From: Methanolinea sp.
Lineage (GTDB): Archaea; Halobacteriota; Methanomicrobia; Methanomicrobiales; Methanospirillaceae
Length of the DNA stretch: 64,000 nt
Assembly (NCBI GenBank): GCA_025453675.1
Contig: JALOPW010000017.1
Span: 1-64,000, forward strand
Direction of reading: 5' to 3'
Shown: one piece after another, positions 1,206 through 28,990 of the stretch
Numbering within the stretch: position 1 is the first letter of the stretch
Layout: every line of letters begins with the position of its first letter
Translations under genes and position numbers: made by a program
Notes under the pieces: model-generated
Told to the model about the DNA's origin: nothing
The model's input: only the letters and a program-made list of their open reading frames with translations
Database searches by the model: none

Positions 1206-2423
1206 ATGGATAAACCAAGAATAACTTTTAAAAAAGCGATAATTGGATTAATTTTGCTAACCGGTGTAATTATTTCAATTTTCCTCGCCATCTCCCTCCT
1301 CACCACCCCAACCCCCCGCACCACCACCCAGTTCAACCTCACCATAACAGAGAGTCAAATCATTATCACCCACACGGGTGGAGAATCCCTCCAATGCGAC
1401 CACCTGGCCATCCTCATGAACAGCGAGCCGGTTCCATTCTCTGATGGCAGCATTGACTGCCCCTGGTCCATTGGGGAGACCCTGACAATCCCACTCACTT
1501 CAACAGACACCATCCAGACAATCAGGATTCTTTATGATTCGGGCAAAGGCCCCTCTGAATTGCTCTATACCGAGATACCAGCACAATTACCAGAGCCAGG
1601 GACAACCAGTATTCCGACACCGGTCACGACAACAATCCCTCTGACTCCAACCCCCACCTCAACCCCAGGCCTCCCTCTCGCCTCCTTCAACGCGACCCCG
1701 AAATCCGGCCCGGTCCCTCTCCCGGTCCAATTCACCGACACCTCCACCGGAGTCCCGGAGGAGTGGCTCTGGTCCTTCGGGGATGGCATGAGCTCCACCC
1801 TGAAAGACCCCCGCCATACCTACATGCGGGAAGGCAGCTACCAGGTGGGCCTCACGGTGAAAAACGCATTCGGCGGGCATACCCGGATCAGTCAGGGCTA
1901 CATCACAGTCACCCCGGCAGGAGAGCGGGATATTTTCCTGGAGGCACAACGCGGTGCGGCGGTCTCCCCCGGTGGATTCATCGAGTTCACGGTCACAAAA
2001 CCGGGTACCAGGATCAAAATCGGTGGGGGAACAATCGACCTTCCTGCCGGTGCACGGGTCCGTCTGACCGTGGATGACGGAGGTAAGGGGAAGGTGTCCA
2101 TACGGGACGGATCGATCGTTCTCTTCGCGTTCGATATGGTCACACTCTCCACCGATGGGATCGAACGAACCAGGGGAGCGGTGCAGGACATCTCGGTGCC
2201 GGGGTACGACGGCCTGCTCTCCAGCATCAACCTCGAAGTTGCGGGGGGATCGGGAGATATTCGCATCCTGGAGGAAGGGTTGCCCGTCTCTATCAACGCA
2301 ACGGAGTCCCACCTCGTCCTGACCTCCCTTCGTCCAGGTGCGTCTGGTATGATGACGCTGGACTGCTACCAGCCGGATTCCACGTCCTTCCAGGGTGCGG
2401 TCACCTCGTATTCTATCGTGTAA
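1206..2423 (+). CDS. Membrane-anchored pilin-like protein with one PKD domain and a C-terminal unknown domain
   Basis: N-terminal hydrophobic helix (AIIGLILLTGVIISIFLAISLL), PKD motif WLWSFGDGMSSTLKDPRHTY; start chosen at MDKPRITF rather than 1185. Confidence 0.8.
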   Translation: MDKPRITFKKAIIGLILLTGVIISIFLAISLLTTPTPRTTTQFNLTITESQIIITHTGGESLQCDHLAILMNSEPVPFSDGSIDCPWSIGETLTIPLTSTDTIQTIRILYDSGKGPSELLYTEIPAQLPEPGTTSIPTPVTTTIPLTPTPTSTPGLPLASFNATPKSGPVPLPVQFTDTSTGVPEEWLWSFGDGMSSTLKDPRHTYMREGSYQVGLTVKNAFGGHTRISQGYITVTPAGERDIFLEAQRGAAVSPGGFIEFTVTKPGTRIKIGGGTIDLPAGARVRLTVDDGGKGKVSIRDGSIVLFAFDMVTLSTDGIERTRGAVQDISVPGYDGLLSSINLEVAGGSGDIRILEEGLPVSINATESHLVLTSLRPGASGMMTLDCYQPDSTSFQGAVTSYSIV

Positions 2424-2638
2424 GGTTCTCTCCATTTTTCCACACGCCCCCCCTCATCTTCTTCACTCTGCAGCCCCGCAAGACACGTCCTTTCACTCAT
2501 TCACGCCGAAAATATGCCGAAATGGGGGATAGATTGATATAGGGTCAGGAGAGATGAAATTTAAATACCTGATCTGAAGGGCCATTGAGCCAATCGGCTC
2601 TTTTAGTGAAGGGGAGAGAATTTTTCGAGTGGAGCAGA

Positions 2639-4171
2639 ATGGATCGGGAATCGGCAATCTCTAAAAATATCATAATGGCACTGATCGCAGCGGTGGTGAT
2701 CATCATGGCGGTCATGGTGGTGGTGATGATCTTCTTCCCACCCCAGCCTGATATCGTGCCCCAGTTCAATGCCAACATCGAACGGTCAGGGAACATCGTC
2801 TACCTCTACCATGACGGAGGAGACCCACTCCAGAAGGGAAGGACCGTTTTGAGGGTCAACGGCCAGGACATCCCGGATTCCTCCATTGCCTTCCTCCATG
2901 CCCAGGACTGGCCATGGACTCCTGGGAAGACGATGCGCATCCAGTATGACGGGCCAGGGACCCCTGACCTTGTCCAGGTGATCTACTCCGGCGGAGCAGG
3001 CGAGATGCTGGTGTTCTCCGACCAGGCAGCCCCGGCACAGGCCACCCCCATCCCGGTCTCCACCGTTGGGGTCCCGGTGGTGACAGCCACCACCGGTGTG
3101 CCCGCCACTCCGGTGGGAACCGCAGCAGTGACCGCACCTGCCTCACCCGCGGTGACCGATGTAACTCCGTCTGCCCCGCAGCCTCCCCAGGCCGTCTTCA
3201 CTGCCGACCCCCGCGCCGGCCAGCTCCCGCTGGCAGTCCAGTTCACTGATACGAGCATTGGAACCCCCACCTCGTGGCTCTGGAATTTCGGAGACGGGGA
3301 ATCGTCTGACCAGAGGAACCCGCAACACACCTACAAGAACCCGGGGTTGTATTCTGTGTCCCTGACTGTGCGAAACCAGTACGGGACTGGTCAGAAGACA
3401 GAGGCTGGCTTCATCTCAGCCGGGACTCTCCCGACAGCCCAGTTTGCCGCAATACCCGCGCAGGGGACACTCCCGCTGGTGGTCCACTTCAATGATCTCT
3501 CGTCAGGGATGCCCTCTGCATATGCATGGGACTTCGGAGACGGGGGAACTTCCACTGAGAAGAACCCCCTCCATACCTACACCAGAGAAGGCGCCTATGA
3601 CGTGACCCTGACCGTCGGGAACCAGTATGGATACAATACCCGCATCCAGAGCGGAGCGGTCCAGGTGACGGCCCCCCAGAGGGTGGACGTCTACCTTACA
3701 GGAAGCCGGATGGGGACCCTCTCCCCCGGGTACCTGCAGTTCCTTGTCACCGGGGAGGGAGGCTGGATCAAGATCGCCGGGTCCAGGTATTCCTTCACAG
3801 CCGGCGACTCCGTGCAACTCTTTGTCGATGACAGCCAGAGCGGTATGATCGACGTGAACGCACTCGGGATAGCCGGGTTCCGTTTCGACCAGGTGCGCAT
3901 GTTTGTGAATGGCAACCTGGTCCGGAGCGGTATCTCCTCTGATATCTGGGTGCCATCCTATGCGGGTCTCCTCTCCACTCTCTCCGCGACCATCCCGCCG
4001 GGGGACTCCAATACAGTCCTCTTCATCAACAATGGCAGGATCATCCCCGGTCCTGCACAGCAGGTCACTCTCTCAGGTCTCGGGGAGAACAGTCTCGGAC
4101 AAATGAGCCTGATCATCAAGCCCGGGTCCCTCGAATACCGCGGCGGCGCTGAATCCTACGCGGTCACCTGA
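2639..4171 (+). CDS. Archaeal type IV pilin-like N-terminus plus two PKD domains and a C-terminal unknown domain
   Basis: N-terminal helix MDRESAISKNIIMALIAAVVIIMAVMVVVMIFF, two PKD motifs (WLWNFGDGESSDQRNPQHTY, YAWDFGDGGTSTEKNPLHTY). Confidence 0.8.
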   Translation: MDRESAISKNIIMALIAAVVIIMAVMVVVMIFFPPQPDIVPQFNANIERSGNIVYLYHDGGDPLQKGRTVLRVNGQDIPDSSIAFLHAQDWPWTPGKTMRIQYDGPGTPDLVQVIYSGGAGEMLVFSDQAAPAQATPIPVSTVGVPVVTATTGVPATPVGTAAVTAPASPAVTDVTPSAPQPPQAVFTADPRAGQLPLAVQFTDTSIGTPTSWLWNFGDGESSDQRNPQHTYKNPGLYSVSLTVRNQYGTGQKTEAGFISAGTLPTAQFAAIPAQGTLPLVVHFNDLSSGMPSAYAWDFGDGGTSTEKNPLHTYTREGAYDVTLTVGNQYGYNTRIQSGAVQVTAPQRVDVYLTGSRMGTLSPGYLQFLVTGEGGWIKIAGSRYSFTAGDSVQLFVDDSQSGMIDVNALGIAGFRFDQVRMFVNGNLVRSGISSDIWVPSYAGLLSTLSATIPPGDSNTVLFINNGRIIPGPAQQVTLSGLGENSLGQMSLIIKPGSLEYRGGAESYAVT

Positions 4172-4384
4172 TACCCTGCGGAATAGAGGAGATCATCCCC
4201 CCCTTTTTTTTAAAAAAAAATGTGAAAATGCCCCATACCATTTCATTCCCATTCCATGTTCGAAAGGTCCATCTGAATCTTCATTGGAAAATCATCCCCT
4301 GCATTTTTGATGCCACATGACTGAAGATGGCGAAGATGCAGTCTTTTTCACTGCCTACCCCCAAATGTAACGATTCCCCCTCTT

Positions 4385-7300
4385 TTAAAGATCCCGGAGC
4401 CGCTGGGATACAAAGTCGGTCAGTTCTTTTGACTCCTGTCGTGCGTATCTCAGGAATCCTTCATAGGCTGACCGTGCCTCGGCAATGCGGGAGAGTTTCT
4501 CGCATGCCAGGGCCTTGTTCAGGTAGGCACGGGCATATCCGCGTTGAATGGAGAGGGCCCGGTCGAATTCGCGGATGGCCTCCTCGCTCTGGTTGCGGTT
4601 GTAATAGATGTTGCCCATGTTGTAATAGGCCTCTGCAAGGTCTGGTTTCAACTCCACTGCCCGGTTAAAATCGGCAATGGCTTCTTCATTGAGACCTTTC
4701 TTCCCGAATTCTATTCCCCTGTTATAATAGGCGGTGGGATTTTCGGGATTAATCTCGATGGCACGGGTGAAATCAGCAATAGCTTCGTTGTACATACCAC
4801 GGCCGGCATATGCATTTCCACGGTTGTTCCAGGCTTTCTCATTCCGGGGGGCGAACTCGATGGTAGCGGTATAATCGGCAATCGCCTCTTCCAGTCGCTC
4901 CACTCTCTGGTAGGCAACCCCCCTGTTGTAATAGGCCTCGGCAAGGTCCGGCTTGATCTGGATGGCAAGGGAAAAGTCCTCCATCGCCTGGTCGATCAGC
5001 CCCTTCTTTCCGTATTCTATTCCCCGGTTGTAATAGGCAGTGGGATTCTGGGGATTTATCCCGATGGCACGGGTGAAATCAGCAATGGCCTCGTCGTTCT
5101 GGCCTTTTCCGGCATACGCATTCCCGCGGTTATTGTAGGCTTTCTCGTTCTCGGGCTGCAATTCCAGCGCCCCCTGGTAATCACGTATGGCCTCGTCGAG
5201 CATCCCTTTCTTGTGAAATGCTACTCCCCTGTTGTAGTAGGCCTCCCCGAGATCAGGCCGCAATACAATGGCTTCACCGAGGTCGGCAATGGCCTCATCA
5301 AGCATCCCGTGCTCCCCGTATTCTATCCCCCGGTTATAATAGGCGGTAGCATTGCGGGGGTTCAGCTCGATGGCACGGGTGAAATCCGCAATGGCTTCTT
5401 CGAAGAGGCCTTTTCCGGCATACGCATTCCCCCGGTTATTATAGGCCTTCTCATTCTCGGGATTGAGATTGATGGTGCGGGAAAAATCCGTGATAGCTTC
5501 GTCTATCCTCCCCAGACGATCATACAGGAGACCCCTGGCGAGATACGTGCTCTCCTCCCCGGGAGATATCTCGATCGCCCGCGTGAGATCGGAGACTGCC
5601 TCTTCGTACCTTCCTTCCTGGCCGTACTCGGCAGCCCTGGCGATATACACTTCCCAGGCCTTTGCATTCAGGCGAAGAGCATTGGATAAATCATCAATCG
5701 CCTTTCCGGTCTTTCCGCAGCGGCTAAACTCCTGCCCACGGCGGAGATACGCCTCGTAATACCGGGGATCTATCTCGAGGACCCGGGAGAAATCAGCGAC
5801 TGCCTCTGCTGACTGCTCCATGGCGGAATATTCCATCCCCCGCTGCAGGAGCACCTGCAGGTTCACCGGGCTGATCAAAAGGGCCTTTGTATAGTCCTGG
5901 ATCGCCTCCTGTCGCTTTCCTGCCTGCTGAAATACGCGTGCCCGCTGCACGTAGGCCTCGGCATAGTCAGGGTCTATCTCAATGGCACGGGTAAAGTCCG
6001 CGATTGCCTCATCCACCCTCTGGCTCCTTGAGTACTCGGCACCCCTGTGCAGGTATGCCTCCTTATAGGCGGGGTTATGAGAGATGACTGAAGAGTAATC
6101 GGCAAGTGCCGGTTCCGAAAAACCCTTTCTTGCATACTCAGCACCCCGGTAGAACAGCGCCTCGATACATGCCGGGCGGATCTCCAGGGCACGGGTATAG
6201 TCCCTGATTGCGATGTCAGAGAGTCCGATGCGGGAGAATTCCTTTCCCCTGCAGCAGAGGGCATCCGGATACCCGGGGTTGATCTCCAGGGCTTTGGTAT
6301 ACTCCGATATTGCCTTGTCCGACATCCCGGATTTCTGATACTCGTTCCCCCGCTTGAAGCAGGCCTCGGCATACTGGGGATTGATCTTCAAAGCCCTGGT
6401 ATAGTCATCGATAGCCTCCTCGATCCTGCCGAGGTGATCGTACTCATTCCCCCTGTTGTAATAGGCCTCGATATACCCCGGATCTATATCTATTGCCCTG
6501 GTGAAGTCCTCGATAGCCTTCTCGGAAGATCCCAGCCGTGAGTGTTCCATCCCCCTCCGGTTGTAGAGTTCCGGGTCATCGGGAACATGGTTGATCTCGA
6601 GTGAGAGTTCCAGTATGGCGAGTTCCTGGGCGGCATCCGTTCCCTCTTCGTGAAGGGGGGCATCACTGTCCAGGTTCTCCTCTGCCGGTTCTTCATTCCC
6701 GGGCTTGACGGACGGTTCTCCAACGGGAGTTGATTCGCGCACGTTTCCCGCCTGTATTTCAGGGGAGGCCTGGTTGAAGATCTCAATGGCACGTGAGAAC
6801 TCGGCGATCGCCTCGTCATAGCGCCCCATTCGATTGAAGAGCACCCCCCGGTTGTTATATGCCTCCACAAACCGGGGGTTTATCCCGATGGCCTTGGCAT
6901 AATGCTCAAGCGATGCATCAAAAAGTCCAAGCTTGCTGTACTCCACGCCCAGGTTATTGTATGCCTCTGCATGCTGGGGATTCTTCTCCAGGCATGCGAG
7001 ATAATCAGCGATAGCAGGTTCAGTCTGCTCCATCTTCCCGAGTGCAATACCACGGTTATAGAGGATATCGGCATTTCCAGGGTCGATCTCCAGCGCCCGG
7101 GTATAGTCCGCCACAGCGTCCTGCAGGTGACCCACACGGGAGAACTCGATGCCCCTGTTGAAGAGTGCCTCGATGAAATGGGTGTCGATATCAAAGGCAC
7201 GGGTATAATCCGCGATCGCCTGCTCGTGCATCCCCTTCCTCCCAAAGATAACCCCCCTGTTGTTGTAGGCCGCCACATAACCAGGATCAAGTTCCAGTGC

Positions 7301-7690
7301 TTTTGAAAAGTCCGCCAGGGCCTGTTCATCCTCCCCCAGCCGTGCATACTCGAGGCCACGGTTGTAATAGGCCTCAGTAAAATCAGGATCGGTCTCCAGC
7401 GCGATGGAAAACTCCCGAATTGCCTGTTCCGGCTGATTGAGAAGAGAATATGCGACACCCCTGTTGTAATAGGCCTCGGTGAAGTGGGGGTTGAGCCTGA
7501 TGGCAGAGTGGTAGTCCTCTATTGCCCCCGTGTAATCGCGCTTCCCGGCCCGGGCCACCCCGCGGTTATGATATGCTTCCGTATCTGCCGGGTTGATCTC
7601 AATGGAACGGGAATAATCGGCAATAGCCTCGTCAAACATCCCTTTTTTATGAAAGGCTACCCCCCGGTTGTAATATATCTGTCCGTCCAT
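4385..7690 (-). CDS. Large tetratricopeptide repeat (TPR) protein, about 30 repeats
   Basis: 1101 aa of 34-residue repeats (AYYNRGxxYxxxGxxDEAIADFTRAIExNPxxxx). Confidence 0.95.
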   Translation of the reverse strand: MDGQIYYNRGVAFHKKGMFDEAIADYSRSIEINPADTEAYHNRGVARAGKRDYTGAIEDYHSAIRLNPHFTEAYYNRGVAYSLLNQPEQAIREFSIALETDPDFTEAYYNRGLEYARLGEDEQALADFSKALELDPGYVAAYNNRGVIFGRKGMHEQAIADYTRAFDIDTHFIEALFNRGIEFSRVGHLQDAVADYTRALEIDPGNADILYNRGIALGKMEQTEPAIADYLACLEKNPQHAEAYNNLGVEYSKLGLFDASLEHYAKAIGINPRFVEAYNNRGVLFNRMGRYDEAIAEFSRAIEIFNQASPEIQAGNVRESTPVGEPSVKPGNEEPAEENLDSDAPLHEEGTDAAQELAILELSLEINHVPDDPELYNRRGMEHSRLGSSEKAIEDFTRAIDIDPGYIEAYYNRGNEYDHLGRIEEAIDDYTRALKINPQYAEACFKRGNEYQKSGMSDKAISEYTKALEINPGYPDALCCRGKEFSRIGLSDIAIRDYTRALEIRPACIEALFYRGAEYARKGFSEPALADYSSVISHNPAYKEAYLHRGAEYSRSQRVDEAIADFTRAIEIDPDYAEAYVQRARVFQQAGKRQEAIQDYTKALLISPVNLQVLLQRGMEYSAMEQSAEAVADFSRVLEIDPRYYEAYLRRGQEFSRCGKTGKAIDDLSNALRLNAKAWEVYIARAAEYGQEGRYEEAVSDLTRAIEISPGEESTYLARGLLYDRLGRIDEAITDFSRTINLNPENEKAYNNRGNAYAGKGLFEEAIADFTRAIELNPRNATAYYNRGIEYGEHGMLDEAIADLGEAIVLRPDLGEAYYNRGVAFHKKGMLDEAIRDYQGALELQPENEKAYNNRGNAYAGKGQNDEAIADFTRAIGINPQNPTAYYNRGIEYGKKGLIDQAMEDFSLAIQIKPDLAEAYYNRGVAYQRVERLEEAIADYTATIEFAPRNEKAWNNRGNAYAGRGMYNEAIADFTRAIEINPENPTAYYNRGIEFGKKGLNEEAIADFNRAVELKPDLAEAYYNMGNIYYNRNQSEEAIREFDRALSIQRGYARAYLNKALACEKLSRIAEARSAYEGFLRYARQESKELTDFVSQRLRDL
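4640..5460 (-). repeat. Higher-order 306-nt (3 x TPR) tandem repeat inside the TPR gene
   Basis: 'YNNRGNAYAG(K/R)G' encoded near 4803, 5108 and 5414, spacing about 306 nt with strong DNA-level similarity. Confidence 0.8.
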
Positions 7691-8018
7691 CAGATCCCCC
7701 GTTTACCAGCTGCATGCGGGAACATGCGTACTATACCCCTGATACTCCATGTGTGCCTGGAATAATTAATTATATTGCTTCTTCTCCCGGATCGGGGAAT
7801 ATTTGGGGGCAGGGGGATGACAGGGAAAGGCGAAAACAGGCGACATGCCATGGATACTCATGTTTCGAAATGGTTATAGAGATAAAGCCCACACATCACT
7901 CTGCAACCTGTCCCATCCGGTTCCAGAACCAATCCATCCTTTCACCACGGGTCGGCACTCTTCCTTCGGCGGCAGGAATGGGAGTGCATTCGGGATACGT
8001 ATCCAGAGGAGAAATATC

Positions 8019-8930
8019 ATGCCAGGATTCAGAATACTCATCCTTCTGCTGCTCCTCACTTGTTGTGCGGGTATCACTCTCCCCACCATGGCAGCAGAGA
8101 CGACACAGAAGACCATACTTTACCAGACTGACTTTTCCCAGAGCCCGGGATGGACCACCAACAGCCCCACGCGGTATTACTGGGACCCCGCCCTGCAGAT
8201 GTACCATTTCAAGGCTGAAGGAGGGACGAACGGCTATTCCTTCATCCCTGTGCGGTATGATGGGCAGTCTTTTACCCTGGAGTATGATGTGATTATCCTC
8301 ACTTCAGAGAAGAATAGTGCATTCCGCTTCGGATTGATCAGTTCCGAGATGGACTTCAGCAGAGGCACCAATGTCCTCTCCTCCTTTGAGAATGGAAAGT
8401 ACGGGAGACTGATGTCACTGCGGGTTATCGACCAGAACAACCAGCTCCGGGAAGCTACCAGTTACTACACCTCCTACTGCGGGGAGCTTCCCGGCTGCAA
8501 GACGATTGAGTTCCAGGAGAATGTCACCTACCATGTGACCGTCCGGTACAACAAGGAGATCCAGAACGCGGATATCAGGGTGACAGAGAAGGAGAGCGGT
8601 ACCCTTGTGTGGGGCTACTTTGTATCAGTCGGGCGGGACCTCTTCTTCATGGACCGCCTGGCCGTCACCACCAAGGGCGATTATGCATTCGGGCCATTCA
8701 CCGAGGGGTACATCGATAACGTGGAAGTCGTTGCCTATTCACTGGTTGAAGTCACGCCCACCACGGTTGAACCGACCGTAACCACGCCGGTGGTGACTGT
8801 GCCCCCGACAACTATTCCCACCACGCCGGCACCCACTCCCACTTCCACCCCCTTCGCACCTCATCTCTCCCTCGCAGCGCTTGGTATTGCAGCCCTCTTC
8901 ATTGTTGTCCGCACCATGAGAGGGGACTGA
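8019..8930 (+). CDS. Secreted/anchored surface protein: signal peptide, beta-rich ectodomain, Thr/Pro stalk, C-terminal TM
   Basis: Signal MPGFRILILLLLLTCCAGITLP; tail TTPVVTVPPTTIPTTPAPTPTSTP + LSLAALGIAALFIVVRTMRGD; start moved from 7845. Confidence 0.7.
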   Translation: MPGFRILILLLLLTCCAGITLPTMAAETTQKTILYQTDFSQSPGWTTNSPTRYYWDPALQMYHFKAEGGTNGYSFIPVRYDGQSFTLEYDVIILTSEKNSAFRFGLISSEMDFSRGTNVLSSFENGKYGRLMSLRVIDQNNQLREATSYYTSYCGELPGCKTIEFQENVTYHVTVRYNKEIQNADIRVTEKESGTLVWGYFVSVGRDLFFMDRLAVTTKGDYAFGPFTEGYIDNVEVVAYSLVEVTPTTVEPTVTTPVVTVPPTTIPTTPAPTPTSTPFAPHLSLAALGIAALFIVVRTMRGD

Positions 8931-8973
8931 ACCGATCGCCAGTCCCCTTCTTCTTTTATGGCTTTTTAGATAT

Positions 8974-9262
8974 CTGGTATGGGTAGGATTGATGAACCGG
9001 ATATCCATTGTGGGGGCTGTTTGCCCCACACCCCCACATGCGATGCCGGGCCGCCGCCCCCGAAATTGCCGCGAAGGTTCCACCAATCGATGCCTGGGGC
9101 AGCACTTCGGCTGCCAATGGTGCCTTTGAGAATGTGGGAATGATTTGAGAACCATAACACGGATCATGGGGACTGCGGCTGTTGGAGTGACTGAATTGGT
9201 ATGTAGATTTTTGCCTCCTAATAACCTCAATTCAGTCTCCCCATACAAAACAGCGAGGAGGA
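8974..9262 (+). repeat. Long intergenic repeat element, copy A (inverted relative to copy B at 22501..22785)
   Basis: Near-identical to reverse complement of 22642..22785 (…GTAGGATTGATG…CCCCCACATGCGATGC…CCGCCCCCGAAATTGCCGCGAAGGTTCCACCAATCGATGCCTGGGGCAGCACTTCGGCTGCCAATGG) plus a second matching block ending ACAAAACAGCGAGGAGG. Confidence 0.9.
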
Positions 9263-9316
9263 GTAAAAATACGTCACATGGTACCGGATAACCGCGAGAA
9301 GAGAATACAAGAGAAT

Positions 9317-9400
9317 GCGAGGGATGGGATTTGAACCCAAGAACTCCTTCGAGACTAGCCCCTCAAGCTAGCGCCTTTGACCTGGCTCGGCAACCCTCGC
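9317..9400 (-). tRNA. tRNA-Leu (GAG)
   Basis: Reverse complement GCGAGGG…CTAGC TTGAGGG GCTAG…variable arm…GGGTTCAAATCCC…CCCTCGC; acceptor stem pairs perfectly, anticodon GAG, long variable arm. Confidence 0.92.
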
Positions 9401-9566
9401 TCCGTGCCATACTACATGGATGCCTCTCCGAAATAAGGTTATCCATATTCAGGGAAATGGAGAGTCCGATTCCCCGTCCTACCTGCCAGGGGATGATCTT
9501 CACCACACAACAGTGCAGGGAATTGACCAGGGATGTATATTAATAATCAGACCATAGATCTTCACT

Positions 9567-10079
9567 ATGTGGTCGGAGATCATAGGGGAATTTGCCGATT
9601 CCCCTTCCCAGACCAGGGTGGTGAGATTCCTCCTTGAGAACGGTTTCGGGGTCAATGCAGAGGGAAGGATCACCTGCAACAATATCGAGATCCCTGCGAC
9701 GCAGGTGGCCAAGGCGCTTGACACAGACCGGAGAGTGGTGGACACCACCGCGCAGCGCATCCTCTCCCTCCCCCTGCACCGCAATATCTTCACCCATATG
9801 AGGGCCACACCTGACCTCTCCCGGGTGGCCAGGCACCTGGACCTCTCGGTGATGACCATACTCCCTAAGGACGCCAGTGAAAAGGGCATAGTCAGCGCTG
9901 CAGTCCGGATCATCGCAGAAGAGGGACTTTCCATACGCCAGATTTTTGTCACGGATCCCCTCCTCTCCGAGGAACCGAGACTGGTGGTCATTATCGAGGG
10001 AGATTTTTCCCCTTCGGTGATAGAAGGGATCCGCCGGCTCCCACAGGTACGCCAGATCACATTCCAGGGGAGTTCCTGA
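9567..10079 (+). CDS. HTH + ACT-like regulator of amino acid metabolism
   Basis: 170 aa; HTH-like N-terminus (TQVAKALDTDRRVVDTTAQRIL) and ACT-like C-terminal half. Confidence 0.65.
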   Translation: MWSEIIGEFADSPSQTRVVRFLLENGFGVNAEGRITCNNIEIPATQVAKALDTDRRVVDTTAQRILSLPLHRNIFTHMRATPDLSRVARHLDLSVMTILPKDASEKGIVSAAVRIIAEEGLSIRQIFVTDPLLSEEPRLVVIIEGDFSPSVIEGIRRLPQVRQITFQGSS

Positions 10080-10563
10080 AGAGCTCCATCTCCAGCCAGA
10101 GATGGAAAAGCCGCCGTTTCAGCCTTCGGGGGAGGTTGTGAGAGCGCATCATCCTCTCCTCGATCCGGATGCGACGGGTTCCTGCCACCAGGTTATCTGC
10201 ATTTGCCACCACCCGCTCCTCAAGTGACCGGGGTATACAGTCTATTGGAAGGAGACGGAGTAGGGTGCATTCATCCGCGGTAAGCCCGGCACCCAGGTGA
10301 CACTCCACCACCCTGGCCACCCGTTCAGGTATCCCCCTCCGGCGGCAGAACTCCGCTCCTGCCTGGGCATGGATCAGGCCGTGGGTACTCCCTCTCCCGA
10401 TGTCATGAAGGAGCGCCCCTGCATCCAGGACCTCCCCCTCCATGAGATCTTCCTGCCAGTACTCCTCCGCCAGGTCTCGGACTGCACGGCAGTGTGCTAT
10501 CACCCTCGTGCTGCAGCCGGCCTCCCGCAGCATCGTCTCCCACCGCTGTCGCGGTTCAGGCAT
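10057..10563 (-). CDS. HD-domain protein
   Basis: [12 protein letters not shown]…[13 protein letters not shown]…[20 protein letters not shown] motif in ALLHDIGR. Confidence 0.8.
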
Positions 10564-11068
10564 GCCCGAGGGACTCTTTCATACTCCTGATTCGTTTCTT
10601 CAATGCCCGCAGGAGGATCTCGTTGTCAAAGTGCTCCAGTCCCAGGTCGCAGGAAGGGCACTGGAACTGGCAGTCCATGGCCTGGCTGAACGTGAACATG
10701 AACCCGCAAGATTTGCAGATATAAAAGTCGTTCTCCTCCTCGTACCTCTCCCGGGCCTCGAGCTTCTCAAGTATGATCTCCATGTCGTCGGCGATCACAT
10801 CATACACCCTGTCGATCCGCAGGTGCCAGAGATACGTGAGCCATCCGGTCTCGTTATTCTTGATCCTGCGGTACTCGGCGAGCCTCTTTTCATAGAGTGT
10901 GTAGAGCGTGTGCCTGACCGAGTTGAGGTTGATACCGGTCTGGGCGGCCAGTTCCTCGTCCGAGTACTCTCCCTCCCGGGGGAAGCTCTCAAGGAGAGAG
11001 ATGCCCTCCTCTCCTATCAGGCGGGCGAGATATGCACGTATTGGGGTATTTGCGAGTATCTCTTCCAT
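10556..11068 (-). CDS. tfe: Transcription factor E (TFE alpha)
   Basis: Winged-helix N-terminus ([45 protein letters not shown]) and zinc ribbon ([23 protein letters not shown]). Confidence 0.93.
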
Positions 11069-11075
11069 AGGACCT

Positions 11076-12152
11076 TCAACCCATATATTGTCGGACCCTC
11101 TTCATATGTGTATCCAGCACGTTCATAGCCTCGTCCTCGCTCTCACCCCATCCATACACGCTGACCATTGCCTGACCCTCCTCGAAGAAAGAACCCGGCC
11201 ATGGGATATCTGCCACAGCGGGGGAGAGGGATGACAGGTCTTCCCTCACCACCGTATCACGATCCGCAAAGAGTATTCTGCGTATCGCGTACCTGGAAGC
11301 CTGGAGCCGGCCTTTCGGGAGTGCTCCATGGCAGGCCCGGTCATGAAGGGAGAAGAGGTTCGTGCCGGTTGCAGCCTCCACGGTATCAAGGGTGGCCTGG
11401 AACCTTGGGTTCACTTCAATGGCCCAGGGCTCCTTTCCAAGGACAAAGTCGATCCCCAGGGTTCCCCGGCAGCCCGATGCTCCGGCAATCCTCTCTGCCA
11501 TCCCTCTCATCATCTCGCCGCCGGGGTGATCAAGGGGAGTGACTGACCCACAGAACCCGAAATGCGCACCCTCTTCTCCACGGAGGATCTGCCGGTTCGA
11601 GGCGATTGCCCGGGCACCACCCGACCCGTCGGCTACGCAACAGACTGATGCAGCCATGCCGGTTACCACCTCCTGGGTGAGGCACGGGGGATGGTCAAAG
11701 GTCTCGAGCCAGCGCTCAAGTTCCGCATCATTCCGGATCACCATGTTACGCCACCCACCAGAACCTGTCCGGGGTTTGATCATCGCCGGATAGCATCCGG
11801 GCCCCAGGATCTTCGGGGCAGGTATACCAAGGGATTCAAAAAATTCCTGGGTGAGGAGCTTATCCATGAAACGCATGGCCCGGTCAGGAGATGTCCCCAG
11901 TACCGGGGTGCGCCCGGAGAAAAGTTCTGCACCGGAGGTCGGGACCAGCCAGTCCACGTGGTGACGGCTGCACATCTCCTGAATAGCACCGGGAAGATCC
12001 GCGAGGTCCTCGAACCGTTCGCGGTCGCGAGTGTACCAGGAGAGATCCTGGTCGCAGAAGTGGTCCACTGCATACACTTCGTACCCTGCAAGGTGAGCAG
12101 ACCGGGCCACGTGACGGGTGGCAAATCCGCAGACGAGGACCGGGACGTTCAT
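11076..12152 (-). CDS. ATP-grasp family protein
   Basis: ATP-grasp motifs ([43 protein letters not shown]). Confidence 0.8.
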
Positions 12153-12673
12153 CGCTCCTCGGTGACTTTTCCATCCGGAGAGGGGATGACCCGGATACTT
12201 GCGCCGGGGAATTCGAGGTCAAGCTCCCGGCCCTGGAAGAGGCGGTCCAGGAAGACGGCGAGGCTCCCTATCTCTGAGTGAGGCTGCCCTGTCACGGAAA
12301 TGTTGTAATCGGCCAGGCCATAGACCTCGCCCGGGACCTTCTCTGCCCCCACCACCACCAGGAGGCGGTCTATTCCCTGCAACTCGGCCTCATGACGTTT
12401 CAGGCCCTCTCCATACATGGTCAGGTGCACTACAGACCCCCCTGCGCCCTTCCAATCCTTTATACACCGTTTCCAGGAGACCTGGTCCTGCACCATGAAA
12501 TCCCCCCCCCACCTGGAGACCACGTCACGGACACTCGATACCACCCCTGAATCGCGAGCAGCAAGGTACATCCCCCGGGCACCGAGCGCACGGGCTGTGA
12601 GACCGACGTGGGTGGTCACCCGCTGGTCCCTTTCGGGCCGGTGGCCGATGCGGAGGACAAAGACTTCAGTCAT
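12149..12673 (-). CDS. tRNA (cytidine-56-2'-O)-methyltransferase, aTrm56-like
   Basis: [30 protein letters not shown]…LTMYGEG…[42 protein letters not shown]. Confidence 0.88.
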
Positions 12674-22179: not shown

Positions 22180-22369
22180 TGGCTGATTCCTCCTTCTCTC
22201 ACCGGGTTTCAGCCCTGCCGGCTACCGTTCATCCTGTGAACAGACCCGTGCCCAATTCATCGCTCCAACTCGTCCAAATCTGATTGGGACTAGATGAAAT
22301 GAAAGAAGGAGGCCCGCAAAGACAGGGACGACCTTCCCAAAAGAGGTCTTCAGGCAGGCCATTTCTGAA

Positions 22370-22440
22370 TAAAACGCACACGAGAACGTCAGGTCACATG
22401 CCCCCCGTGATGAAAACCGCGAATGCGGTTTTCATACCAA
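22370..22440 (-). repeat. REP/BIME-like palindromic repeat (modules c+d)
   Basis: AAAACGCACACGAGAACGTCAGGTCACATGCCCCCCGTGATGAAAACCGCGAATGCGGTTTTCATACCAA. Confidence 0.85.
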
Positions 22441-22500
22441 ACCGGACAGGTCCCCATTGATGGGCAGAATCGAAAATGAGATCTGCTGTGCATTGGTTGG

Positions 22501-22824: not shown

Positions 22825-23622
22825 TCATCTCCTCCGGGTCCTCCATGCCAGCAGACCCGCTCCGAGCAGGCCTGCACAGCACCCTGCCAGAGGGACGGAC
22901 ACCCTGGTTGGTGGTAACGTATCAGGAGTTGCCGCGGTCACCTCAGGGGTTACGGTGGAAGTCCCTGTCGCCGGAGTGTCCACCATGAACTTGACAGTGG
23001 CCATGAAACCTTTCAGATCATAGAAGTCCACGTAATAGTTGCCCCGCTCACCGACCGGGATGGTCTTTGAGAAATATCCCTCATCCCTCCCGATCCGGGT
23101 GGTGGTACGCACATCCTGCGGAGGCAATACCGCTCCCTGGGGCCCGCTGACCTTCATGGTAATGGTGGTCACTCCGGCTTTCGGGATATATCCCTCGATC
23201 CGGAGTGCCTCCCCCAGTACCTGGTCAGTGGAAACCGTGAGGATTATCTCCCCTGATCGGTCTGTGATCCGGAATACCCGCAGTGTGACTGAGTCGGATC
23301 CAATTTTTGATCCTGGATCGGTGGGGAACCTGGCTTCCACCTTGTAATCCCCTGATTCCAACCCAGATGTGGGAAACGAAGCCTGGAATGATTTTGACTC
23401 ATCCACAATAATGATCTTCCTTGCCACCTCTTCAGGGGTAGACGGCTGCAAACGGTAGATCACGAGGTCAAACTGCGTTCCTGCCGGGAACGTCGTATTC
23501 CCCGTCACTTCGAGGGGTGCCCCTGCCCTGATCTCAGGAGGGGCATAAATGTTGAGGATATACGCCTGGGCACTTCCTGCCAGGAAGAGGAGGCAGAGCA
23601 GAAAAATAACCGCTGTTCTCAT
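22825..23622 (-). CDS. Secreted surface protein with C-terminal TM anchor (DUF3821-like)
   Basis: Signal MRTAVIFLLCLLFLAGSAQA; C-term VPLAGCCAGLLGAGLLAWRTRRR. Confidence 0.65.
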   Translation of the reverse strand: MRTAVIFLLCLLFLAGSAQAYILNIYAPPEIRAGAPLEVTGNTTFPAGTQFDLVIYRLQPSTPEEVARKIIIVDESKSFQASFPTSGLESGDYKVEARFPTDPGSKIGSDSVTLRVFRITDRSGEIILTVSTDQVLGEALRIEGYIPKAGVTTITMKVSGPQGAVLPPQDVRTTTRIGRDEGYFSKTIPVGERGNYYVDFYDLKGFMATVKFMVDTPATGTSTVTPEVTAATPDTLPPTRVSVPLAGCCAGLLGAGLLAWRTRRR

Positions 23623-23734
23623 GTCATGCTCTCAGCGGTCAGGAAATAATTAGTTTCTGCTCAAAGGCGGGAGCCAGCCCCTCATCGCCTGGAAATGCCT
23701 GTGGATCTTCTGGGAGGATGGTTCAGGATTTCCC

Positions 23735-23775
23735 AATGAAACACACATGATACCTTCTGGTCTCATGTGCGTTTT
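23735..23775. repeat. Truncated copy of repeat module d
   Basis: CAATGAAACACACATGATACCTTCTGGTCTCATGTGCGTTTT. Confidence 0.65.
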
Positions 23776-23867
23776 TTTTTGATCTTTCTCTCCAGATAAA
23801 CCAGATTATGGAGTTTTTTCTTCATTTATTTGATTATTCCATCATTTTCAGTCTGATTTCAGAATAA

Positions 23868-23880
23868 AATATATAAATTG
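23868..23880 (+). promoter_or_regulatory. Candidate TATA box of the small-protein operon
   Basis: AAATATATAAATTG about 25-30 nt upstream of ATG 23901, in an AT-rich island. Confidence 0.45.
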
Positions 23881-23900
23881 TCAGCACATGTTTCTCACAT

Positions 23901-24428
23901 ATGGCTTCTGTGAAACTGAAGATTCAGGAACGTGCTTTTCCCAGCAGGGGACGTGCCAGGATGCACGAATCATATCTCAGGCAGCTGGACATCAAGGAAG
24001 GAGACGAGGTGGAGATCTACCGGGACGAAGCTGCAAAGCCCGCTGTGGTCGCCGTCTTTGCTGATACCCTGGTCGAGGAAGGGCATATACGGCTCAGCCC
24101 GGAGGATATCGCCATGATCGGTGCTGCCCCGGGAACGAGCGTGACCGTGAAGAAGAGACCTCCCCTGACTGACCGGGTGAGGAAGGGTGCGGAAGATACC
24201 GCTGGGAAGGTCAGGGAGGGTGCTACCCAGGCCGCCGGGAAGGTCCGGAAAGAAGCTCCAGAGGCCGCTGAGAAGGCCAAGGAAGGAGCTACTCAGGCTA
24301 CGGAGAAGGTCAGGGAGGGTGCTACCCTGGCTGCCGGGAAGGTCAAGGAAGGAGCGGCCGCGGCAAAAGAATCCATCGAGAAGGGCACCGATACGGTGAA
24401 GAAGAAATTGCAGGACAAAGACCTGTGA
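23901..24428 (+). CDS. Double-psi-barrel-like N-domain (AbrB/Cdc48-N-like) fused to LEA-like 11-mer repeats
   Basis: SVKLKIQERAFPSRGRARMHESYLRQLDIKEGDEVEIY; then repeats KVREGATQAAGKVRKEAPEAAEKAKEGATQATEKVREGATLAAGKVKEGA. Confidence 0.65.
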   Translation: MASVKLKIQERAFPSRGRARMHESYLRQLDIKEGDEVEIYRDEAAKPAVVAVFADTLVEEGHIRLSPEDIAMIGAAPGTSVTVKKRPPLTDRVRKGAEDTAGKVREGATQAAGKVRKEAPEAAEKAKEGATQATEKVREGATLAAGKVKEGAAAAKESIEKGTDTVKKKLQDKDL

Positions 24429-24444
24429 ACATGGGAGGCGAACA

Positions 24445-24828
24445 ATGGCAGATATATGGGTGACCATCAATAATTCGCTCCCGGTCATCCTTCTCTTTAT
24501 AGGGCTGATTATCGTCTACTTCATCATACGTGAAGTCAGGCTCATGTATACCAAGACAAAAATGGCACAGCTGGATCTCGAGAAGGAGAAGCTGCAGTTG
24601 ATCAAGGCGGATATGGAGCAAAAAGGGCATCCCTTCTTCCGCGTTCCTCCCGCGAAACTGGAGGAGCTGAAGAATCTTGACGAGGAGAACACAATGCTGG
24701 ATACCGATATCTTTGCGCAGCAAAGCGCGGTGGAGAAGCGGATCCAGAGGCTGGAGAGCAAAGTCAAGCTGACCAAGCTCGATCACATGGTTGAGAAGAT
24801 AAAAAAAGAGGAGGAACGGCTTGGGTGA
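24445..24828 (+). CDS. Small membrane protein: N-terminal TM helix + coiled coil
   Basis: LPVILLFIGLIIVYFIIREVRLM then charged heptad-rich region. Confidence 0.65.
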   Translation: MADIWVTINNSLPVILLFIGLIIVYFIIREVRLMYTKTKMAQLDLEKEKLQLIKADMEQKGHPFFRVPPAKLEELKNLDEENTMLDTDIFAQQSAVEKRIQRLESKVKLTKLDHMVEKIKKEEERLG

Positions 24829-24834
24829 TCTCAC

Positions 24835-25143
24835 ATGACCGTGTATAAAACACCAGGAATGACGGGAGAGAAGCATTCCTTCATCGATACGCTGAAGGAG
24901 GCTCCGGGGTACATCGACCAGAGGCTCCCGACGATGGACAAGGATCTTGACCAGTATTTTGATCAGAACCTGCCGGCCGTCATCGAGGAGTGGGGCCTCA
25001 TCAGCAGTGTGCATCTCCAGGAGCTGGAGAGGAGACTTTCCCGGGTACACCAGCAGATCGACTACCTGGAGAAGGGACGCACCACCCTCCAGGCAAGGGC
25101 CGGTGCACTGGAGAAGGAGATCAGGAAACTGGAGGGCTTATGA
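24835..25143 (+). CDS. Coiled-coil protein with IEEW motif
   Basis: LDQYFDQNLPAVIEEWGLISSVHLQELERRL; ATGA overlap with next gene. Confidence 0.65.
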   Translation: MTVYKTPGMTGEKHSFIDTLKEAPGYIDQRLPTMDKDLDQYFDQNLPAVIEEWGLISSVHLQELERRLSRVHQQIDYLEKGRTTLQARAGALEKEIRKLEGL

Positions 25144-25361
25144 TGCGATTTGATTATATGGGAGGGTATCTGGACCGCCGGATGAAGCATCTCATCGAGG
25201 AATGGAATCTTGCCACCAGGAACGATCTCGGTGACCTCTATTCCAGGCTCCATGCCATCGAGGACGAGGCCAGGACCTGTGCCGGGTTCGAGGCCACTGC
25301 ATCAGCCAAACTCACCGAGCTCGAGAAGAGGCTTGAGCACCTGAAGGGGATGAGAAGATGA
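25140..25361 (+). CDS. Coiled-coil protein with IEEW motif
   Basis: YLDRRMKHLIEEWNLATRNDLGDLYSRL; start at ATG 25140 (not 24990); ATGA overlaps both sides. Confidence 0.65.
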   Translation: MMRFDYMGGYLDRRMKHLIEEWNLATRNDLGDLYSRLHAIEDEARTCAGFEATASAKLTELEKRLEHLKGMRR

Positions 25362-25696
25362 CAATTATCGAGGCACTCCTTGTACTCCTGCTGATACTCC
25401 TGGTTGGCTTCATTATTTACTACTATTTCCGGGGATCATCCGGGAAGATTGAGGTCTCCCGTCCGATGGAGAGCAGGCTCGATGAGTACCTGGACCGCCG
25501 TTTTGATGCCATGATCGAGGAGTGGTCTCTTGTCCGCCGACCGCAAGCCCAGAAGTTCAGGGATGAGAAACTCGCAGACATCGCGCAGGACGAGAAGAGA
25601 ATGACAGAATTAAAAGAGTTCGAGAGACAGTTCGGGGAACACCTGGCAGGCATGGAGGAGAGGCTTGAGACTCTGGAAAAGCAGAACATCAGGTAG
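25358..25696 (+). CDS. TM-anchored coiled-coil protein with IEEW motif
   Basis: TM ALLVLLLILLVGFIIYYYF; YLDRRFDAMIEEWSLVRRPQAQKF. Confidence 0.65.
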   Translation: MTIIEALLVLLLILLVGFIIYYYFRGSSGKIEVSRPMESRLDEYLDRRFDAMIEEWSLVRRPQAQKFRDEKLADIAQDEKRMTELKEFERQFGEHLAGMEERLETLEKQNIR

Positions 25697-25727
25697 CGAA
25701 CGAAACAGGGGAGGAAAGGAGGATCTG

Positions 25728-25976
25728 GTGTCCCGATTGAGAAATGATATCCCCCGGGTCAGAAATCAGGGGGACCCTCCCGAAAAGGATCCGGCACGCT
25801 TCTCAGGGTATCACTGCGACCTCTGTAACAGTCCCTTTGCCTACACGGAACTCAAACAATGTACCCTGTGTGGCAGATGGGCATGCTCCTCGTGCTGGAC
25901 AGAGAAATACTATGTATGCAATTCCTGCAACGGGATAATCACATTGCACACCATGCAGGAAAAAAGTCACAATTAA
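25728..25976 (+). CDS. Small zinc-finger protein (paired CxxC motifs)
   Basis: CDLCNSPFAYTELKQCTLCGRWACSSCWTEKYYVCNSCNG; GTG start at 25728 likely. Confidence 0.6.
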   Translation: MSRLRNDIPRVRNQGDPPEKDPARFSGYHCDLCNSPFAYTELKQCTLCGRWACSSCWTEKYYVCNSCNGIITLHTMQEKSHN

Positions 25977-26156: not shown

Positions 26157-26298
26157 ATGAAAATGGCTTCGCCATTTTCATGATTTATGTCCGAAATCCT
26201 GAAAGGAGTTCATAGTGTGTTGGTATGAAAACCGCATTCGCGGTTTTCGGTTTTCATCACGGGGGGCATGTGACCCGACAGTCTCATGTGCGTTTCAG
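26157..26298 (+). repeat. REP/BIME-like composite repeat (modules a-b-c-d)
   Basis: GAAAATGGCTTCGCCATTTTC…TATGTCCGAAATCCTGAAAGGAGTTCATAGTGTGTTGGTATGAAAACCGCATTCGCGGTTTTC…CACGGGGGGCATGTGACCCGACAGTCTCATGTGCGTTTC. Confidence 0.88.
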
Positions 26299-26485
26299 TA
26301 TACTCATCATTCTCATCCATGACAGGGCAGCGAATGGCACCTTTCTGATTTTTTCGTCTCCTCCCTGGTTCATGAGGTACTCAACACTGCAGGGATCAGT
26401 TCGCAAAGAGGCTGACCGGAACCAACCGTTTCACCAGTTCTGGTCGCACGATACATTCATACAGTGCGGGTGCGGAAAGTTCACT

Positions 26486-27055
26486 ATGACTGAAACTGTG
26501 GTTGTAGTCACACCCTGTGACAGGGGCTGGGGTGCGCTGGTCATCCTGGGACTCATCTCCATTCTCTTTGGAATCCTCCTGATGCTCTTTCCTGATCTCA
26601 CTGCCATCGCCGTGGTGACATTGATCGGGGTGCTCGTCGTCATTTTTGGAGTCATCATGCTCCTTTCGTCTCTCTTCCTGCCTGCTGGAGCACCGAAATC
26701 GGCCCTCCTTCTGTTCGGAGGGTTGGTCGGCATCCTGATCGGGGTGGGAATCGTCGTCTATCCTATAATCGCAGGTGCAATCCTGACCGAGATAATCGGC
26801 GCTGCCATCTTCATCATAGGGATGATGCAGATGCTCTTTGGCCTGGTCTTCGAAGGGGACAAACGAAGGTCCCTCTACTTTATTGCCGGACTCCTGTCTG
26901 TGATATTCGCCCTCCTGATTATCTTCTATCCCCTGACTGGAGGGCTCATCCTCTTCGGATACCTGGTGGCCATTTATTTCTTCATCCTGGGTCTCTTCAT
27001 GGCCATCGCCGGGTATCTCAGCCATTGCATCTGCACACAATATGCAAATTCCTAA
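26486..27055 (+). CDS. HdeD-like (DUF308) membrane protein
   Basis: Six hydrophobic segments, GWGALVILGLISILFGILLMLFPDLTAIAVV; start revised from 26225, which lies in the repeat. Confidence 0.8.
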   Translation: MTETVVVVTPCDRGWGALVILGLISILFGILLMLFPDLTAIAVVTLIGVLVVIFGVIMLLSSLFLPAGAPKSALLLFGGLVGILIGVGIVVYPIIAGAILTEIIGAAIFIIGMMQMLFGLVFEGDKRRSLYFIAGLLSVIFALLIIFYPLTGGLILFGYLVAIYFFILGLFMAIAGYLSHCICTQYANS

Positions 27056-27889: not shown

Positions 27890-28885
27890 CTATTCATCCT
27901 TCCCTGGACCCCTCATCTTCTCTCGTAATCGCCATCCCCCTGAACCAAGGGCAATCCCAAGCAGGAAGACCAGGGTTCCGAAGACCTCCATCAGCAGTGC
28001 AAGCATCGCGTCAGGTATCAGCAGTATCGAGACTGCCAGCAGGAATGAGAAGCATCCTGTCCCCAACCGGCGGTAAAAACCCTCGGGCACTGCGCTCTTT
28101 CCCCTGGCCACACGCGAAAACGACATATAGGCACTTCCGAATGCCCAGAATGCAAGGATCAACAGCAACAACTGGACAAAATCGTCCAGTGGCAGATAGA
28201 ATGTCACGATTCCGAGAAAGAACACAGACACTCCGAGAAAGAGGCTCCCCGCAGACACAAGACTCTTCTGATGCAGGCTGATCCCTTTTCGGGCAATGAA
28301 CACCCCGAGGACCACTATCCCCAGGGGAAGCAGGAGGTGCATCATCCCCCCGAATGTGAGGAGAGGATTAGTGATGATCCAGGCTCCAAGGAGAGCCAGG
28401 GCGAACCCTACAAGAATCAGTATCTGCCAGGTCCGCTTCTGTTCTCTCAAAATAATCCCGGTTTTACTGCCGGGACTGCTCCTGGTACTGGCGACGAGAG
28501 TGACAAAGGTGTCTGCAATCATCAGTAACAGTGGTGCATCGTCCGCAAGGTGCAGAAAGGGATGAACTTTGGGGTCATACCGGTCAAGGTGGACCTTCCA
28601 TTCGGTGGAAGTCTCGTGCACATGGTAGTTCCCTTTCCGGTAACTCGCAAGAGTTCCCGGGGTCGGAATGTTTATCAGAGACCTTTCCCATCCCGGGTCA
28701 GGAGGTTCAGTGACCAGATCTTTGGGAATGGCTACCTCCCACACTCCATGATGCAATGGATCCAAAAAATCATCGAGTCTGGTCACGTTCGTCACTCTAT
28801 GATGAGTATTTTGGTGAAATCCTGCATCAAGGTTGTGTATCGCTTCGCGCCATACACTCCACCCTGTTTTCAACGAAACGCACAT
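27890..28885 (-). CDS. Hypothetical soluble domain fused to an HdeD-like multi-TM domain
   Basis: 331-aa ORF; N-terminal soluble region (HLDRYDPKVHPFLHLADDAPLLLMIADTF) then multiple TM helices; listed start (MCVSL) is within a repeat. Confidence 0.6.
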   Translation of the reverse strand: MCVSLKTGWSVWREAIHNLDAGFHQNTHHRVTNVTRLDDFLDPLHHGVWEVAIPKDLVTEPPDPGWERSLINIPTPGTLASYRKGNYHVHETSTEWKVHLDRYDPKVHPFLHLADDAPLLLMIADTFVTLVASTRSSPGSKTGIILREQKRTWQILILVGFALALLGAWIITNPLLTFGGMMHLLLPLGIVVLGVFIARKGISLHQKSLVSAGSLFLGVSVFFLGIVTFYLPLDDFVQLLLLILAFWAFGSAYMSFSRVARGKSAVPEGFYRRLGTGCFSFLLAVSILLIPDAMLALLMEVFGTLVFLLGIALGSGGWRLREKMRGPGKDE

Positions 28886-28990
28886 GATACCTTTCGGTCA
28901 CATGCCCCCCTGATGAAAACCGCGAATGCGGTTTTCATACCAAAATGCCTCCGGCATTTTCATGCGTCGGGCCTGTTGCGAAATGTATCA
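28873..28990 (-). repeat. REP/BIME-like composite repeat (modules d-c-e)
   Basis: CGAAACGCACATGATACCTTTCGGTCACATGCCCCCCTGATGAAAACCGCGAATGCGGTTTTCATACCAAAATGCCTCCGGCATTTTCATGCGTCGGGCCTGTTGCGA. Confidence 0.88.

Follow-up and report, generated by a model that had tools for sequence, protein, structure and literature searches.

The window, a stretch of 64,000 nucleotides at the start of a Methanolinea contig, carries six open reading frames on the plus strand at positions 23901-25976, all of them real and designated g1 to g6 here. A first-pass annotation of the sequence had described six closely packed genes with two ATGA overlaps, and both features were confirmed. The first gene, g1 (23901-24428), encodes a protein of 175 residues with a predicted double-psi beta-barrel (DPBB) of the Cdc48/VCP-N type and a tail of 11-residue repeats. 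It is followed by g2 (24445-24828; 127 residues), with an N-terminal transmembrane (TM) segment and a coiled coil predicted to be cytosolic, and by three genes whose products share a motif containing IEEW. Two of these products are soluble and carry a coiled coil, namely g3 (25143 being its last position, from 24835; 102 residues) and the small g4 (25140-25361; 73 residues), and in the third, g5 (25358-25696; 112 residues), an N-terminal TM segment precedes the IEEW domain and the coiled coil. The last gene, g6 (25728-25976), encodes an eight-cysteine binuclear treble clef of the Pfam family Prok-RING_2 (PF14445). Its start is uncertain, being either a GTG at 25728 with GGAGG upstream or a TTG at 25665 that overlaps g5. 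The ATGA overlaps join g3 to g4 and g4 to g5, and their -4 geometry is kept in 44/60 relatives for each pair. As the first-pass annotation had supposed, no enzymatic domain was found in profile searches of the operon proteins. An Rfam search for RNA elements likewise gave no match.

A promoter-like region lies at 23855-23900 on the plus strand, with a TATATAAA box that ends 23 nt upstream of the g1 ATG. The same spacing was found in close relatives, and a TATA-like box was present at -60 to -20 in 32 of 61 sequences of the upstream alignment. One upstream promoter probably drives co-transcription of the whole operon, and the short distance between the TATATAAA box and the first ATG suggests a single transcript that is short-leader or leaderless. 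The operon is present as a single copy in the host genome, and its closest named relatives are Methanolinea metagenome-assembled genomes (MAGs). Its 5' side holds plus-strand genes of alaS-like and HTH type, together with a divergently transcribed secreted protein (22825-23622, minus strand) with a signal peptide and a C-terminal TM segment; the latter adjoins the operon in Methanolinea and has a distant homolog at three further loci (L124, L127, and L131). The 3' side carries a dispersed repeat and then a DUF308 membrane protein.

To define the distribution of the set, PF14445 was searched in 232 genomes of the class, of which 92 scored over the cut-off, and approximately 6.6 kb around 60 of the 92 positive loci was taken for synteny. 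In all 60 of these Methanomicrobiales relatives, each of the six window proteins had a match, and gene order and strand never differed. A profile of g5 was positive in 92/232 genomes, nearly the same set as that found with PF14445, and a search of genome contigs recovered the full set wherever the contig was long enough. Across 397 genomes sampled from the phylum, matches to the g5 profile were confined to Methanomicrobiales, and no IEEW relatives were found outside the order. A possible mobile-element origin was checked with one subunit per database, and neither 50,697 phage records searched with g6 nor 72,556 plasmid records searched with g5 gave a match. When flanking genes were clustered, each neighbour was limited to 14 of the 70 loci at most; with the flanks mostly unconserved, the module is self-contained, and it is the module rather than the region that is conserved. 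It is present in approximately 40% of the sampled Methanomicrobiales genomes, including those of Methanoregula, Methanolinea, Methanospirillum, and Methanogenium, which means that tests could be run in culturable species with known sequences.

The six genes were also found on a 5.2-kb contig of Candidatus Altiarchaeota CSMAG_1615, in the order g2-g3-g4-g5-g6-g1, that is, with g1 moved to the end. The GC content of this contig is 37.7%, compared with 37.7-40.1% for three further contigs from the same bin, and the dapF gene that flanks the operon has relatives, 45-65% identical, in 24 other Altiarchaeota genomes, which makes misbinning unlikely. The occurrence amounts to one contig, in 1/29 genomes of the phylum. 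Reshuffling with retention of every gene is stronger evidence for joint function than synteny within the order. A second match in the Altiarchaeota phylum (L175/L179) was rejected as a chance hit to a HEAT-repeat protein.

Extra copies comprising g1 to g5 without a recognisable g6 were detected in two genera, labelled g17 and g2 in our genus numbering (loci L180, L181, L182, and L184). In the tree, these copies group beside complete ones from the same genus; g6 thus appears to have dropped out following duplication, which makes it the dispensable member of the set. One full extra copy, L187, from a genus labelled g13, groups with Methanogenium-type sequences, a placement that suggests transfer or a mis-binned contig. 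Two operon contigs, L136 and L147, are labelled Theionarchaea, and the L147 proteins are approximately 53% identical to those of Methanomicrobiales; these may be mislabelled MAGs or a true transfer.

The kinship of g3, g4, and g5 had been proposed from their shared motif. Whole-domain profile alignments among the three gave hhalign E values of 8e-16 to 2e-13. Because coiled coils align spuriously, the profiles were trimmed to the IEEW segment (29-31 columns), and 60 column-shuffled controls were prepared for each pair. The trimmed profiles scored 46.6-53.5 against a maximum of 17.8 in the shuffles, and g2, used as a control since it has a coiled coil without IEEW, reached an hhalign probability of only 49. 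Chance coiled-coil similarity was excluded by these two controls, and on the profile evidence IEEW is a genuine homologous domain in three paralogs, at the segments originally quoted. The motif reads LPTMDK.LDxYFD....AII.EWGL in g3, Y..YLDRRM...I.EW.LAT in g4, and RP.ESR.DEYLDRRF....EW.L in g5, and no curated Pfam or NCBIfam family covers it.

The TM-coiled coil architecture ascribed to g2 and the membrane anchoring ascribed to one IEEW protein, g5, both held, with a TM segment predicted near the N terminus in 61/61 homologs of each; in g2 it spans approximately residues 10 to 28. No TM segments were predicted in g3, g4, or g6 across the relatives. The basic residues of g2 and g5 occur solely after the TM segment, which implies that the coiled coils are cytosolic. 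The g2 coiled coil has the conserved elements LEKEK, N..LETDIFA, and RLEN.VK. Matches of g2 and g5 in the PDB were to generic coiled coils and were set aside.

For g1, the annotation had suggested an AbrB/Cdc48-N-like domain, of which the Cdc48-N half was retained. Residues 1 to 86 matched PDB entry 7dg9 in Foldseek (E 9.9e-8, TMt 0.82, rmsd 1.6), and this part of the model has a pLDDT of >85. The Pfam domain CDC48_N was detected at E<=0.001 in 37/45 g1 homologs, while the window g1 itself scored 28.4 bits, below the gathering cut-off of 35.1. Judged from the model, residues 1 to 86 are a Cdc48-N-type DPBB. They share this barrel with the N domain of Cdc48/VCP (VAT), but g1 lacks the second N subdomain and the AAA+ modules, the latter found neither in g1 nor elsewhere in the operon by profile searches, and has in their place the repeat helix, sometimes with a TrkA_C domain. 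No Pfam or NCBIfam family describes this architecture.

Residues 87 to 175 of g1 consist of 11-residue repeats forming a predicted amphipathic helix, with a 33-nt period in the DNA. At 24199-24355 on the plus strand, this period appears as a tandem array of 4.8 copies (TRF score 153), five of them in register. The hydrophobic periodicity of the tail has a median of 98.5 degrees, against 98.2 for an 11/3 helix, and its power, 9.0, exceeds the 99th percentile of the shuffles (6.8). The Pfam Apolipoprotein family was matched by 12/45 g1 homologs, and 11-mer repeats of perilipin 4 and synuclein are known to fold on lipid surfaces (PMC5889406). The tail, modelled at low confidence (pLDDT approximately 50 to 60), is therefore best compared, by period and composition, with the 3-11 helices of synucleins, apolipoproteins, and perilipins, and may bind lipid. 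With synuclein, perilipin, exchangeable apolipoproteins, and group-3 LEA proteins it shares the 11-residue period, the amphipathicity at 98.5 degrees, low hydrophobicity, and a richness in Lys, but unlike all of them it extends from a DPBB and is encoded in an archaeal operon. As the likeness is one of period and composition, convergence is likely. The length of the tail varies from 34 residues, found in L074, to 189, and the Altiarchaeota g1 likewise has a short one; lipid sensing is thus perhaps not universal. In 7/45 homologs, a TrkA_C domain follows the repeat helix, a clue to possible ligand control. It exceeds the Pfam cut-off at the C terminus of g1 in L044, L053, L067, and L147, where DPBB, 11-mer helix, and ligand-binding domain are thus combined in one protein.

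The CxxC zinc-finger protein of the annotation is indeed a zinc finger, now extended to four CxxC pairs and placed in a named family. g6 matches Prok-RING_2 well above the cut-off (2.1e-25; 89.1 bits against 22.4), although the Pfam entry covers the zinc finger only and not the surrounding six-gene module. The cysteines C30, C33, C45, C48, C53, C56, C64, and C67 are invariant in the alignment, and their spacing of x2-11-2-4-2-7-2 is kept in 60/62 sequences. The g6 of L093 is the sole one missing one of the eight cysteines, WADDNC replacing WACxxC. The all-Cys centre, C-x2-C-x4-C-x2-C, is FYVE-like and not RING-like, with the C3HC4 His absent. Against the PDB, the g6 profile gave TFIIE zinc ribbons as top matches (E 0.003), a match that was called fortuitous for another RING-like finger (PMC4678705). 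Modelled by AF2 at a pLDDT of 89.7, g6 is best classed as a binuclear treble clef that may be kin to either FYVE or RING fingers.

The earlier suggestion of a structural or scaffold complex at the membrane remains the best reading of the operon, on the grounds of synteny, paralogy, and TM segments: the IEEW segments align, the genes are syntenic in relatives, and no characterised complex was matched. A physical complex is likewise suggested by the synteny. Built on the observed gene set, synteny, paralogy, folds, TM segments, and repeat periodicity, the reading favoured here, with a probability of roughly 0.45, is that of a scaffold at the membrane that senses lipid surfaces and serves envelope homeostasis, in which the physical complex, lipid binding, and the envelope role are the proposed elements. 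The operon products would form one membrane-associated hetero-oligomeric scaffold, with g2 and g5 as single-pass anchors (N-out, C-in) that place the coiled coils on the cytosolic membrane face. The IEEW helix and coiled coil of g5 would co-assemble with the soluble paralogs g3 and g4. A peripheral subunit would be provided by g1, the amphipathic tail of which would lie on lipid surfaces and presumably sense packing defects or curvature; its Cdc48-N-type barrel would dock a partner, and the TrkA_C domain of some relatives would add small-ligand control. The role of g6 would be that of an accessory adaptor with a binuclear zinc finger, one that duplicated copies can do without, rather than a ubiquitin ligase. 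The most likely job of the assembly in these methanogens would be to sense and stabilise the cell membrane, in envelope homeostasis or stress.

The scaffold part of this reading is well supported and much surer than the homeostasis part, at which the neighbouring DUF308, HtpX, and PspA genes hint weakly. A DUF308/HdeD-like membrane protein (26400-27055, plus strand) lies directly 3' of the window operon, a position kept in Methanolinea. DUF308/HdeD-like genes were found within 5 kb of the operon in 8/20 genomes (4/10 genera), and they also adjoin it at L126, L129, and L130, loci from outside the family to which the window belongs. By genus, the 5-kb proximity has a p of approximately 6e-4, calculated with an upper-bound density for an association picked post hoc. 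In L185, a RING-less copy is followed by HtpX, and in L189 another lies 4-10 kb from genes for cardiolipin synthase, DUF308, PspA, PspAB, and HtpX. The L189 block at 2326-12214 encodes a phosphoesterase, a ClC channel, DUF2150, cardiolipin synthase, DUF308, DUF937, PspA, PspAB, and HtpX, and from its gene content appears envelope-stress-like; a neighbourhood of PspAB and metallopeptidase is a known context (PMC11237479). DUF308, HtpX, and PspA neighbours are absent beside most operons, and their association was picked after looking. Within the order, PspA itself is uncommon, and its presence does not follow that of the operon (6-7 of approximately 92 genomes with the operon versus 9 of approximately 140 without it); none was found in the host genome.

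Among known systems, the phage shock protein (Psp) systems of envelope stress likewise combine small TM proteins with coiled-coil partners at the inner membrane, and PspA, PspAB, and HtpX lie near some operon copies. The operon differs in having no homolog of PspA, PspB, or PspC; g5 scores 10.7 bits against PspB, where the cut-off is 25.6. Membership was rejected on this ground and because the occurrence of PspA does not follow that of the operon.

The same parts could instead form a membrane tether or microdomain organiser resembling eukaryotic FYVE-coiled-coil tethers or perilipin coats, which would gather lipids or proteins at one site (a pole, an invagination, or a droplet) and have no stress role. 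We consider this somewhat unlikely. It would account for the long coiled coils and two TM anchors, for the perilipin/synuclein-type 11-mer helix in g1, and for the FYVE-like finger of g6, which shares with FYVE and FYVE_2 (Slp) domains the all-Cys pattern C-x2-C...C-x2-C-x4-C-x2-C...C-x2-C and has them as its best fold matches. The structural match is weak, however (first-ranking FYVE domains at Foldseek E 0.08-0.5, TMq 0.41-0.51), g6 belongs to another sequence family, and the R(R/K)HHCR phosphoinositide motif is absent, the aligned stretch being ELRQCVLCG, so that binding of the PI3P type is not implied. A reading in which an enzyme-free archaeal membrane-surface organiser would combine a DPBB-amphipathic-helix sensor akin to synuclein or perilipin, a heteromeric IEEW coiled-coil coat with two TM anchors, and a FYVE-like finger, and as a prokaryotic analogue of FYVE/coiled-coil tethers or lipid-droplet coats of eukaryotes would define a membrane site or compartment in methanogens, must be regarded as doubtful.

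The Pfam name of g6 and the g1 barrel, equivalent to one half of the Cdc48 N domain, on which p97 cofactors dock, would fit an archaeal ubiquitin-like ligation/unfoldase adaptor, a minimal ERAD-like device with g6 as RING E3, g1 as Cdc48-N-like substrate receptor, and the coiled coils as membrane platform. This is improbable. The operon has no gene for an E1, a Ubl, a JAB protein, or an ATPase, the g6 spacing C-x2-C-x11-C-x2-C-x4-C-x2-C-x7-C-x2-C includes no RING histidine, FYVE ranks first in Foldseek, if weakly, and RING-less operon copies exist. No match to E2 (UQ_con) was found in 24 operon genomes, and the control genomes gave none either. On these points, a RING E3 function of g6 is disfavoured.

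A stress-type LEA-like partner had also been proposed, and of this the 11-residue repeats stood and the LEA assignment did not; a lipid-surface amphipathic helix describes the tail better and carries no implication of a desiccation-type LEA role, and a stress role is weakly hinted at by the neighbourhood. An operon for desiccation or osmotic protection, with g1 as the LEA protein and the other products organising it, is accordingly judged quite improbable, even though 11-mer repeats also typify group-3 LEA proteins and the tail is rich in Lys, Ala, Gly, Glu, and Thr. The tail is appended to a folded barrel, varies in length, and is short in the Altiarchaeota form, while conservation extends over the barrel and the remaining five genes, and no LEA family was matched by the window g1 at E<=1 or by the 45 members at E<=0.001. 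That g1 is an AbrB/SpoVT-like DNA-binding regulator sequestered by the membrane proteins is very unlikely indeed: weak MazE_antitoxin and AbrB-type matches exist (15.4 bits against TIGR01439, cut-off 28.3), but profile and fold searches pick the Cdc48-N DPBB and not a swapped-hairpin barrel, and no HTH is present.

The single domains are of known kinds, but among the Pfam and NCBIfam families and the papers searched no described system was found that matches their combination, the IEEW family, or the g1 architecture. The Prok-RING_2 family reportedly stems from work by Burroughs, Iyer, and Aravind in 2011, in which the neighbourhood may already have been noted. No mention of PF14445 was found in the papers searched, and the main texts of papers on the M. 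hungatei envelope, proteome, and genome contain nothing on the operon genes. The enzyme-free membrane operon pairs eukaryote-like parts, namely, a Cdc48-N barrel, a FYVE/RING-type binuclear finger, and an 11-mer lipid-surface helix. Should it be a lipid-sensing scaffold, archaea would have an envelope system of a new kind, and RING/FYVE-type fingers a concrete prokaryotic context in which they act outside ubiquitin chemistry.

The dispersed repeat beside the operon is approximately 80 nt long, with the palindromic core ATGAAAACCGCGAATGCGGTTTTCAT, and was found at 22363-22441 (minus strand), 26220-26296 (plus strand), and 28867-28943 (minus strand), with a degenerate copy at 23730-23773. A 17-mer of the repeat occurs four times in the window with up to 2 mismatches, against 0 expected. 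The repeat looks like a REP/MITE-type element. The copy just 3' of the operon gives rise to a spurious ORF start at 26225, and the repeat may act as a terminator hairpin.
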